Below, piece by piece: positions 9,886 through 25,463 of a stretch of DNA of 32,631 nucleotides (its first letter is position 1; each line of letters starts with the position of its first letter). This DNA is from Pseudomonadota bacterium (GTDB lineage: Bacteria; Desulfobacterota; Desulfobulbia; Desulfobulbales; Desulfurivibrionaceae), in assembly GCA_018829945.1 (NCBI GenBank), contig JAHJTI010000063.1, forward strand, positions 1 to 32,631, read 5' to 3'. A program made the position numbers and the translations under genes. A model generated the notes under the pieces. It had not been told where the DNA came from. It saw only the letters and a program-made list of their open reading frames with translations, and made no database searches.

Positions 9886-9987
9886 GCTTTGACAGGGCTC
9901 TCCCGAGCTTGCCGAAGGGCTTAGATGAACGAAAGAAACTCTGACGATTTCAAGATGACTACCGTTCGCCCTGAGCCTGTCGAAGGG
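9886..9987. repeat. REP-like dispersed palindrome, locus A
   Basis: GTGCTTTGACAGGGCTCTCCCGAGCTTGCCGAAGGGCTTAGATGAACG, with CCGTTCGCCCTGAGCCTGTCGAAGGG inverted downstream. Confidence 0.85.
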
Positions 9988-10038
9988 TGTATTTCTGTTT
10001 TCGCAAGAAGCTCTAACGAAACACTCCGGATTCTTGGT

Positions 10039-10808
10039 ATGGATGATTTTCAAAAACAGGCTCTCACGGAACACCTGACCGAGTTGCGCAAATGTCTGAT
10101 CTACTCCGTGCTCGCCACGGTGGCAGGATTTGCTGTGGCGTATTCTTATAGCAAAGAACTCGGCCAGTGGCTCTTCAAGCCCCTGTGCGACGTCATGCCC
10201 CAAGGTTCCAGCCTGATCTTCACCTCGTACCAGGAAGGGTTTTTTTTTATCTGAAGCTTTCCCTGGTTGCGGGAATTTTTCTTGCCAGCCCGGTCATTTT
10301 TTATCAGCTTTGGCGGTTTATCGCCCCCGGCCTCTATCAGCATGAAAAACGGGTGGTACTGCCATTCAGTATGCTCTCTTCCCTGTTCTTTTTTGGTGGA
10401 GCCGCTTTCGGTTATTTCGTGGTTTTCCCTCCGGCCTTCAAGTTCCTGCTCGGCTATTCCAACGATTTCTTAAGCCCGATGCCCACGGTAAAGGAGTATT
10501 TTTCCCTCTGCCTGCGGCTTCTCATCGCCTTTGGGGTTATCTTTGAGCTTCCCATCTTCATGGTGCTGCTGGCAAAAATGGGTGTGGTGAGCGCAGCGTT
10601 CCTAAGCAAACATCGCAAATACGCCATTCTACTTTCCTTTGTAATCGCCGCCATCCTCACCCCCACCCCGGACGTGATCAATCAATGCCTCATGGCTGTT
10701 CCCCTTATTGTGCTGTATGAGGTGAGTATTGTTGCGGTCTGGTTGCTTGGGAGGAAACGGCTGGCTGGGTTTGCTGAAACCAAGAACGTTGATGGGACGA
10801 CGGAGTAA
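10039..10808 (+). CDS. tatC: Sec-independent translocase TatC, disrupted or frameshifted at T9 (10240-10248)
   Basis: Frame 1 encodes LTEHLTELRKCLIYSV...IFTSYQEGFFF then ATC TGA. Frame 3 continues YLKLSLVAGIFLASPVIFYQLWRFIAPGLYQHEK...ILTPTPDVINQ. Both halves are TatC. The longer track start (9925) translates a REP-like repeat (RPEPVEG). Confidence 0.9.
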
Positions 10809-21753: not shown

Positions 21754-22893
21754 TTATTTGCCAACAATTATTTGAAGAATAAAGTCAACTTGTTCGTTTG
21801 AAAGGGCTGGATAAATCGGTAAACAAATCACTTCATTTGCGGCCTTGTACGCGACCGGCAAATTCGTGTGTGTTGCCGAAAGCATCCCTCGGTACATTGG
21901 GAAATCGCTTATCAGCGGGTAGAAGTAACGGCGTGCATAAATACCGTTGTCCTGCAGCTCTTGATACAAAGCATCACGGCTCAGCCGATAGTCCGGTTGT
22001 ACCAGAATTGGAAAGTAGGGGTAATTGGCCACCTTTTCGCCTGCCGCCGGCAGGCAATTGATCCCCTGAACTTTGGCCAGGGCCTTCCTGTAGCGGTTGT
22101 CAATAGCTTTGCGTTTTTCCCGGGCTTCATCAATGCCTTTCAGTTGCAATAATCCGAAAGCAGCATTGATTTCGCTCATCTTACCGTTAATCCCTGGGGC
22201 GACGACGGTTACTTCGTCTACGAATCCAAAGTTTTTCAAATGATCGATGTGCCGTTTGGTTTTCGCGTCCGGGCAGACGATGGCTCCCCCCTCAAAGGTG
22301 TTGAATACCTTGGTGGCATGAAAGCTTATTATCGACAAATCCCCGTGATTAAGCACGCTGCCGCTATGGCATTGCACGCCAAAGGCATGTGCTGCATCGT
22401 AGATGACTTTCAATCCATAATTGTCGGCAATTTCCTGAATACGGTCTACATCGCAGGGATGTCCGTAACAGTGTACCGGCATAATTGCAGTAGTTTGCGG
22501 GGTGATGGCGGCTTCGATTTTGGCAGGATCGAGGTTAAGCGTGTTTGGGTCGATATCCACAAATACCGGCTTAATTCCATTCCACAGCAAAGCATGTGCT
22601 GTGGCTACGAAGGAATATGGCGTGGTGATGACTTCGTCCCTGATGCGTAAGGCTTGGAGGGCAGTGACAAGTGCGAGGGTCCCGTTGGTGAACAGGGCAA
22701 GATGTTTTACCCCCAGATAGTCGCACAAGGCCTGCTCAAATTGCTGGTGAAACGGCCCGCTATTGGTTAACCGCTTACTGGCCCATATTTGTTCCAAATA
22801 GGGAATGAATTCCTCCAGTGGGGGCAAGAGAGGTTGTGTAACATAAATTGGCGGGTGTTCCTGTGGATCCGTCATTTGTGATTTTTTTTTCAT
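21754..22893 (-). CDS. DegT/DnrJ/EryC1/StrS (VioA-like) PLP-dependent aminotransferase
   Basis: TNGTLALVTALQAL, IMPVHCYGHPCDVDRI, YDAAHAFG, ISFHATKVFNTFEGGAIV. ATG at 22893 overlaps the upstream stop (ATGA), so the track's 22929 start is probably too long. Confidence 0.93.
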   Translation of the reverse strand: MKKKSQMTDPQEHPPIYVTQPLLPPLEEFIPYLEQIWASKRLTNSGPFHQQFEQALCDYLGVKHLALFTNGTLALVTALQALRIRDEVITTPYSFVATAHALLWNGIKPVFVDIDPNTLNLDPAKIEAAITPQTTAIMPVHCYGHPCDVDRIQEIADNYGLKVIYDAAHAFGVQCHSGSVLNHGDLSIISFHATKVFNTFEGGAIVCPDAKTKRHIDHLKNFGFVDEVTVVAPGINGKMSEINAAFGLLQLKGIDEAREKRKAIDNRYRKALAKVQGINCLPAAGEKVANYPYFPILVQPDYRLSRDALYQELQDNGIYARRYFYPLISDFPMYRGMLSATHTNLPVAYKAANEVICLPIYPALSNEQVDFILQIIVGK

Positions 22894-25463
22894 TCTCCTT
22901 GCCTTTCCCCCTTGCACCATCGCCGCCACATATCCCGATAGGCTGCCTCAAGATGGTGGGTAATATTGCCCGGCTTGCAGTTTGTCCCGCTCATCTGTTC
23001 GCGCAGGGATTGCCGGATCCGATTTAAACCGGGCAAGTCCTGCGCCAGTTCTATGGCGCGTTGCAGGTATTCCTCTTCGCTGTGGGTGATGAACTCGTGC
23101 ATGCCGATGCGCGACAGGATTGCCACGCCACAGCGTGATACCATCTGCTCGCCCGCCAGGGTGATGACCGGCACCCCCATCCACAACGAATGGTAGGTCG
23201 TGGTTCCCCCATTGTAGGGAAAGGGGTCGAGTGCCAAATCAATGTGGTGGTGCAGGGCTAAATAATCAACGATGGGCATGCGTGGTTGTAAGATCAGGCG
23301 TTCCGCAGCAATGCCTGCCGCCCCAAACAGTTCAATCAGCCGCTGTTGTATTCCGCCCTCCGCCGCGTTACCAAGCATTAGCCGGGCATGCGGCAGCGCC
23401 GTCAGCAGGCGCGCCCACAGGGCGGTTACCCCGGGATTGATTTTTGTGGGATTGTTCAGGGAGGCAAAGATCAGTTCGTCGGATTTCAGTGCCGGGAGTG
23501 GATTGACCTGTGGACATCCTGGCTCCGGACGATAGGCCGCTACCGTATCCGGTAGACGTATCAATTTCTCGGTGTGGTAGCGCTCGGTAAGTCCGGGAGG
23601 GTCCATGTAGGCATCAGTAATGCGGTAGTCCATTGCAGTCAATCCGGTGGTGCCCGCGTAGCCGATCCAAGTTGCCTGTACGGGCGCAGGTTTTTTGGCA
23701 AATACCGGCAAGCGGTTATGCGCAGTATGTCCGGATAAATCGATCAAGATATCGATCCCGTCGGAGCGGATTTGTCGGGTTAACTCCTCATCGTTCATCC
23801 CCATGCAAACCAACCAGTGATCTGCATTGGCTGTCATTCGCTCAGTATGGCCATCGCGCTTTGTATTATTATAGTAGCAATAAATCTCCACTTGTGACTT
23901 GTCGTGGCTGGCGAGAATCGGTTCGATGAAAAAAGCCACCGCATGATTGCAAAAATCCCCGGAAACATAACCCACCCGCAAGCGTCGTTCTGGGTCAGGA
24001 CTATTTTGGTGCGGCTGCCAATCGCACCGGAGTGGGGCTTCAAAGTGTTCGGCATAGCGTTGATGTTCGTTGAATATCTCCATAGGTGTGAAGGTATTCA
24101 AGTATTGTATGGTCAGCAAGAGATTGCTGTGCGCCGAAGCGTAATCCGGCTTAAGCAAAAGTGCTTGTCGGTAAGATGCGACCGCTTCGTCTAACAGGCC
24201 TTGATCCTTAAGTACATTTCCAATATTGCTGTGCGCTTCGATATAGTCTGGGTTGATCTCCAGCGCTCGGCGCAGGCAGGCTTCGGCTTCTGCGAGTCGT
24301 CCTTGCTTTTGGAGAAGATTTCCGAGGTTATTGTATGCGCTTGCAGAAGTCGGCTTAAGCAATAGCGCTTGTTGGTAACTGGTGATGGCCTCAGCGATAC
24401 GGCCTTGAGCCTTGAGTGTATTCCCAAGATTCCCATATATTTCGGCGCAATTCGGCAGAAGTTCCAGCGCCCGGCGACAACTGGACTCGCTCTCCGTGAG
24501 TTGGCCCTGAGCCAACTGTATAGTCGCGAGATTGTTATGTGCCTCGGGGTAGTCTGGCCTTAGCTCCAGGGCGCGTCGCAGGCAGGCGTCGGCTTCCGTG
24601 AATCGTCCTTGCTCCTGGAAAATGTTTCCGAGGTTATTGTATGCGATTGCGGAAGTCGGCTGCAGTTTGAGCGCTCTTTGATAGCAAACTATTGCTTCAT
24701 CCAGTGACCCTCGTTCCTTAAGCGCTCTGGCCAGATTGAAGTGGCCGTCCGCTGCTGTTGGGTTCAGTTGCAGCGCATGTTGGAAGCAGCCGATCGCGGC
24801 GTCGGGTTTCCCCTGATCACAAAAAATATTTCCTAATTGTGCGTATACCTCAAGAAAATCCTCTTTTATAGCCAATGCTTTTTTGTAAGAGAGGAGGGCC
24901 TCTTGGAGCCGACCTTGAGATTGCAAGGTGTTGGCCAAGTTATACAAGGTGTCGGCATGGTTTGGTTGTAACTGGAGTGCTTTTTGGTAAGTTGAAAGCG
25001 CTTCTTCGTATCGGGCTTGGTGATGAAAAATTACTCCCAGATTGTTTAATGCCTCAAGGTAATCGGGCTGTAGAAGCAGGGCTTTTCTGTAAGATGGTGC
25101 GGCTTCGTCGAAGCGCCCCAAGTCTTTTAGGGCATTGCCCAAATTGTAATGATAAGCTGCTTTTGCAGGGTTTTCATAAATGGCTTTCTGGAAGAGTGAA
25201 ACTGCTACGGCATGCTGCCCGCGTTGGCAGCTCATGATAGCTTTTGCATGCAGGGTTTCTGCATGATTCGGGTGTATGGCCAGTATCTTTTCGTATATCT
25301 CTTCTGCTTGTTGCAGGTTTCCCGCTTGGTGATTCTTGATAGCGTTTGCCAAGGCCTGTCCAAGATCAAAGGAAGCCCTTTGAATGGTAGGAGATTTGCG
25401 GCGCGGCCTTCCGGCGGTATTTTTTTTGTGTTTTTTCTTGAGGCTCATTGGGAGACGCCCCAA
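22890..25463 (-). CDS. TPR-repeat SPINDLY/O-GlcNAc transferase-like protein (GT41)
   Basis: About a dozen 34-aa TPRs, then LRVGYVSGDFCNHAVAFFIEPIL, IDILIDLSGHTAHNRLPVFAKKPAPVQATWIGYAGTTG, DLALDPFPYNGGTTTYHSLWMGVPVITLAG. An alternative start is ATG 25448. Confidence 0.94.
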   Translation of the reverse strand: MGRLPMSLKKKHKKNTAGRPRRKSPTIQRASFDLGQALANAIKNHQAGNLQQAEEIYEKILAIHPNHAETLHAKAIMSCQRGQHAVAVSLFQKAIYENPAKAAYHYNLGNALKDLGRFDEAAPSYRKALLLQPDYLEALNNLGVIFHHQARYEEALSTYQKALQLQPNHADTLYNLANTLQSQGRLQEALLSYKKALAIKEDFLEVYAQLGNIFCDQGKPDAAIGCFQHALQLNPTAADGHFNLARALKERGSLDEAIVCYQRALKLQPTSAIAYNNLGNIFQEQGRFTEADACLRRALELRPDYPEAHNNLATIQLAQGQLTESESSCRRALELLPNCAEIYGNLGNTLKAQGRIAEAITSYQQALLLKPTSASAYNNLGNLLQKQGRLAEAEACLRRALEINPDYIEAHSNIGNVLKDQGLLDEAVASYRQALLLKPDYASAHSNLLLTIQYLNTFTPMEIFNEHQRYAEHFEAPLRCDWQPHQNSPDPERRLRVGYVSGDFCNHAVAFFIEPILASHDKSQVEIYCYYNNTKRDGHTERMTANADHWLVCMGMNDEELTRQIRSDGIDILIDLSGHTAHNRLPVFAKKPAPVQATWIGYAGTTGLTAMDYRITDAYMDPPGLTERYHTEKLIRLPDTVAAYRPEPGCPQVNPLPALKSDELIFASLNNPTKINPGVTALWARLLTALPHARLMLGNAAEGGIQQRLIELFGAAGIAAERLILQPRMPIVDYLALHHHIDLALDPFPYNGGTTTYHSLWMGVPVITLAGEQMVSRCGVAILSRIGMHEFITHSEEEYLQRAIELAQDLPGLNRIRQSLREQMSGTNCKPGNITHHLEAAYRDMWRRWCKGERQGE

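Follow-up and report, generated by a model that had tools for sequence, protein, structure and literature searches.

The tatC gene of this locus raises the question of whether, and by what route, a full-length TatC protein is made from a coding sequence whose reading frame is interrupted at a run of nine T residues. In the window, by which we mean the whole 32,631-nucleotide stretch of DNA that was analysed, the slip site reads CAG GAA GGG TTT TTT TTT ATC TGA in frame 0. The frame-0 start is the ATG at 10039, and its 71-aa product ends in ...SYQEGFFFI, corresponding by homology to the N-tail, the first transmembrane helix and the first periplasmic loop of TatC. When one T is read a second time (from 10248), translation continues as YLKLSLVAGIFLASP... 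up to the stop codon at 10806-10808. The features of the gene are as follows.

10039..10254, + strand: frame-0 ORF of tatC, the N-terminal 71 residues, matching TIGR00945 positions 1-58
10231..10239, + strand: codons CAG GAA GGG, immediately 5' of the T run, with GGG strongly favoured class-wide
10240..10248, + strand: T9, the putative slippage run, read in frame 0 as three Phe codons TTT; T9 in 159 of 160 homologues
10252..10254, + strand: frame-0 stop TGA, one codon past the run; TAA or TGA there in 159 of 160 homologues
10248..10808, + strand: -1 frame TatC continuation of 186 residues, starting Tyr-Leu-Lys, matching TIGR00945 positions 60-215

The joined two-frame product is a member of the TatC family. 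It matched PF00902 over its full length (1-208 of 208, 257.8 bits, cut-off 25.1) and TIGR00945 likewise (1-215 of 215, 233.7 bits, cut-off 132.7), and its alignment to solved TatC structures, 4b4a and 4htt among them, ran unbroken across the slip point. One inserted nucleotide thus joins both frames at the cost of zero residues. An earlier note on the window, made without database searches, had claimed that tatC is split by a -1 frame change at T9 and that a -1 slip restores TatC with no residue missing; both claims held, with T9 at 10240-10248 and the TGA at 10252-10254.

A DNA search with the 770 bases of the gene gave matches in 55 of 58 relatives, and in the alignment of relatives T9 and the -1 offset were identical across the genus and the family and also in further families of the order. 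The PF00902 profile search covered 258 genomes of the order and the search of the class with the joined protein again 258, indicating that the class sample holds this one order; the class name Desulfobulbia rests partly on the NCBI lineage of Desulfobulbales. Most matches in these 258 genomes started near residue 66, the mark of the split gene. Base-level reading of the DNA at the slip site yielded 160 distinct sequences with the split and, within the class, 11 distinct intact ones, besides intact outgroups, while about one third of the class genomes were either unread at this level or without the gene through incompleteness. The split gene was present in 13 of the 15 families coded in the set, and CAGGAAGGGTTTTTTTTTATCTAAA is present in NZ_CP050700.1, the finished chromosome of Desulfopila sp. 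IMCC35008. In a phylum sample of 297 genomes (12 of them in-class), the split form was absent from the listed matches outside the class, all of which started N-terminally and were unsplit, and a search of a plasmid collection returned no match.

Among the 160 split sequences the T run was nine long in 159 and ten long in one. The frame-0 stop stood one codon past the run in 159 of the 160 (TAA in 90, TGA in 69); the exception, L337, is the sole split tatC with the Leu codon CTC, and its frame-0 stop comes several codons later. Recurrence of T9, the -1 offset and the immediate stop in distinct sequences is far beyond chance.

We examined synonymous variation in a codon alignment of 158 split genes, with 196 columns considered. 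The lowest synonymous entropy of the gene fell on the three Phe columns, which were TTT in all 158, although 67% of all Phe codons in the genes are TTT and three consecutive TTT codons would be expected in about 35%; the site is conserved beyond codon usage. Second in constraint was the Gly codon 5' of the run, which was GGG in 110 of 124 (89%) against a background of 22%. Third was the Leu codon two places past the run, with CTA in 89, CTG in 68 and CTC in 1; over all 160 sequences CTA occupied the site in 90 (56%), compared with backgrounds of 2.2% for CTA and 39% for CTG. CTA and CTG are exactly those Leu codons that produce TAA and TGA in frame 0. Because the sequences are related, the counts are not independent of one another; the comparison with the remaining columns is nevertheless internal to these genes, and the pattern persisted with one sequence per genus (55 sequences: canonical T9 in 53, CTA in 23, CTG in 31, GGG in 27). 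Sequence comparison shows that selection maintains the run, the preceding base and the immediate frame-0 stop throughout the class, and that the stop is itself selected, by way of the rare codon CTA.

Codons GGT or GCT 5' of the run would extend it. Elsewhere they account for 24% of Gly and 17% of Ala codons, respectively, whereas GGT precedes the run once in 160 (L266, the T10 sequence) and GCT once (L031), in a sequence whose run has moved by one base but still counts nine T's. Length nine therefore seems to matter in itself. The motif Phe-Phe-Phe-Tyr together with a frameshift already entails much of the T9 conservation, so that conservation of T9 alone cannot separate mechanisms. Differences by codon position were 0.331/0.224/0.600 for the N-terminal part in frame 0 and 0.285/0.144/0.587 for the C-terminal part in the -1 frame, indicating purifying selection on each half in its own frame; both halves evolve as coding sequence.

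In a maximum-likelihood tree (a quick search, with SH-aLRT support only), split and intact tatC of the class formed a single clade with 100% support, with the intact genes nested at five places (f9; f14/g19 with f11/g43; f3/g65; f11/g41; f12/g17) and the starred branches requiring at least four changes. Read directly, the tree gives a single origin of the split form at the base of the class followed by about five restorations; by itself it cannot distinguish gain from loss, but the outgroup genes are unsplit. Mended genes show free choice of Phe codons (TTC TTC TTC, TTC TTT TTC or TTT TTT TTC) and none has T10, conservation of the T run being lost once the frame is mended, with one exception. 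This is a copy in G130 on contig C205, which keeps an in-frame T9 in a genome that also has a split copy. The two G130 copies are the intact L116 (G130:C205) and the split L327 (G130:C128); L116 clusters with a different family (f14), and could stem from contamination or from transfer. One TatC paralog, L003, was extracted from the wrong strand and appears as a long-branch row outside the class clade in both trees; no conclusion uses it.

We consider it likely (probability about 0.72) that tatC is a programmed frameshift gene, operated most probably by RNA polymerase slippage that adds one U; this is inferred, with no transcript, ribosome or peptide data. In the proposed mechanism RNA polymerase would slip on T9, whose length equals that of the RNA:DNA hybrid of about 9 bp, and a fraction of the transcripts would gain one extra U (U10), bringing the C-terminal part into frame and giving full-length TatC. 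Unslipped U9 mRNA would meet the stop one codon later and yield the 71-residue product containing only the first helix. Slippage may thereby hold the level of TatC, or the amount of full-length relative to truncated product, at a fixed fraction, neither role having been shown. The G tract of GGG might allow the upstream end of the hybrid to re-pair after a one-base backward slip, which is possible but rests on inference only, and the proposed mechanism leaves the GGG preference incompletely explained.

Transcriptional slippage is preferred because the run matches the RNA:DNA hybrid in length (about nine; PMC5574713 uses nine), because errors of transcription in homopolymer runs are predominantly insertions (PMC5574713), because nine A/T is the usual length, and a common threshold, at which selection against slippage acts in bacteria (PMC1088944), because the run appears capped at nine, and because RNA structure was found neither downstream nor upstream. 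The T9 at the junction of the two tatC ORFs also fits the A/T run of about nine or more expected of mxiE-like transcriptional slippage genes. A bolder reading holds that polymerase slippage is the sole route by which the whole class expresses one of its TatC genes, selection having tuned the run length, the preceding base and the immediate stop. Slippage would then serve as a fixed throttle, or would sense the conditions of transcription, and so set translocase stoichiometry or make a functional single-helix fragment; we offer it tentatively, leaning slightly against it.

The main rival is programmed -1 ribosomal frameshifting, by which full-length TatC would come from a homogeneous U9 mRNA. 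GGG TTT TTT TTT contains U_UUU_UUU, an X_XXY_YYZ heptamer in the frame-0 register, on which the P and A sites would lie over the second and third Phe codons. The correct frame of the heptamer and the stop one codon further speak for it, but several observations speak against it. No downstream stimulatory structure was found relative to synonymous-codon shuffles (mean z -0.32 to -0.05 for windows starting at +6 to +60, pseudoknots being outside the test), the intact genes of the class showed no less downstream structure than the split ones, and there was no excess of upstream RNA structure against the same kind of shuffles. Shine-Dalgarno-like stimulators of -1 frameshifting lie about 10-14 nt upstream of the slip site, whereas here the purine-rich CAGGARGG abuts the run; this stretch follows from encoding Gln-Glu-Gly, and no comparison with codon usage was made. 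The heptamer also leaves the avoidance of T10 and the preference for GGG unexplained. We therefore regard ribosomal frameshifting as unlikely, although it is not excluded and may contribute.

A two-part TatC, in which translation of the C-terminal part begins independently, through reinitiation or translational coupling, and the two polypeptides assemble, is favoured by the overlap of the frames and by a frame-0 stop near the junction. However, in 128 of the 160 sequences the -1 frame lacks an ATG close to the junction, and no conserved start codon was found there in the 160. Only two codon columns, +15 (43) and +35 (72), have ATG, GTG or TTG in more than 40 of 160, and both lie well within the protein. 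The -1 frame is moreover conserved right to the junction, making this explanation very improbable.

A class-wide pseudogene kept by chance, with paralogous TatC working in its place, could appeal to the two other intact TatC genes of the genome (on C314 and C121), but it is contradicted by purifying selection on both halves, by synonymous constraint exactly at the slip site and by the split gene in 13 of the 15 coded families, and can be almost wholly set aside. A sequencing or assembly error concealing a true T10 can likewise be all but dismissed: homopolymers are error-prone, but the 160 distinct sequences come from many projects and include some finished chromosomes, and the rare CTA codon would have no reason in an in-frame T10 gene. 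Phase variation was rejected, as the run, nine in 159 sequences and ten in one, does not vary in length like that of a phase-variable homopolymer gene.

The earlier note had named the T10 error as the simplest alternative, which failed on the distinct split sequences, the complete chromosomes and CTA, and its pseudogene alternative failed on the purifying selection acting on both halves. Its proposal that slippage at T9 gives truncated plus full-length TatC is strongly supported by the comparison of tatC in relatives, in which T9, the -1 offset and the immediate stop recur class-wide, in the absence of transcript, ribosome and peptide data. Between transcriptional and ribosomal slippage, which the note left undecided, the comparison now favours the transcriptional form without proving it.

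Transcriptional slippage of this kind has precedents. In Shigella flexneri mxiE the polymerase inserts a nucleotide at a U run with a frequency of 20-30%, and the longer product is the active one (PMC1088944, PMC4256274). Both mxiE and tatC consist of two overlapping ORFs joined by one added nucleotide at a U run, but mxiE is a plasmid-borne virulence regulator with a reported slippage frequency, whereas tatC is a translocase gene that lies on the chromosome and is conserved throughout a bacterial class, with slippage inferred and not measured. Thermus thermophilus dnaX, which shows transcriptional slippage on A9 and makes two products in a set ratio (PMC1088944), shares with tatC a nine-base A/T run in a core cellular gene; there, however, the long product comes from standard decoding and the short one from slippage, while standard decoding of tatC gives the short one. 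Citrobacter rodentium tssM1 (A11) is, like tatC, a frame-disrupted secretion gene; it is rescued by polymerase slippage at about 20%, and both of its products are used (PMC4256274). It differs in that the A11 has been described from a single species, with Yersinia pseudotuberculosis providing a related case, as against a T9 fixed class-wide in tatC. Escherichia coli dnaX, an example of -1 ribosomal frameshifting, resembles tatC in its -1 shift at a heptamer with a nearby stop. Its heptamer is preceded by a Shine-Dalgarno-like element at a set distance and followed by a stem-loop, in contrast to tatC, where structure was not found and the purine-rich stretch abuts the run.

No report of frameshifting or slippage in tatC was found in the open literature searched, subscription papers not being excluded, and there was no mention of it in the consulted text of a survey and a review (the latter available in part). 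The mechanism is of a known kind, and it is likely that the gene and its class-wide conservation are new. Most known bacterial cases of programmed transcriptional slippage come from insertion elements, a few virulence or secretion genes and Thermus dnaX; tatC would add an evolutionarily locked frameshift in a translocase gene throughout a large class with sulfate reducers and sulfur disproportionators among its members. With reannotation, a gene that databases probably record as split or as a pseudogene would become a working one. The approximately five natural reversions are ready-made controls, and cultured members make the purpose of slippage testable.

The two further intact TatC genes of the genome lie at G000:C314:1834-2915 (L360), directly behind tatB and adjoining purA, and on G000:C121 (L361:5845-6549, - strand), adjoining secDF (gene names from translations); the cell is therefore not dependent on slippage for every TatC. 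Genes resembling tatA are located elsewhere in the genome, and three TatC copies appear usual in the class. Inspection of ORFs (not profile-based) at 18 further GNN-T9 sites in the same genome revealed no obvious second frameshifted gene. Upstream of the split tatC in the window stand genes for a D-Ala-D-Ala carboxypeptidase and a 5-formyltetrahydrofolate cyclo-ligase, and relatives belonging to several genera share the order carboxypeptidase, cyclo-ligase, tatC. Between the cyclo-ligase gene and tatC (window 9895-9990) lie, as judged by eye, inverted copies of a CCTGAGCCTGTCGAAGGG-like repeat. In L045 a second, partial copy of the tatC C-terminal part (L045:7973-8320) lies about 1.3 kb downstream of the split gene. 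Further along the window, positions 22890-25463 encode a large TPR protein with a glycosyltransferase family 41 (O-GlcNAc transferase-like) domain, which, lying near flagellin and fliD, is a candidate flagellin glycosyltransferase.
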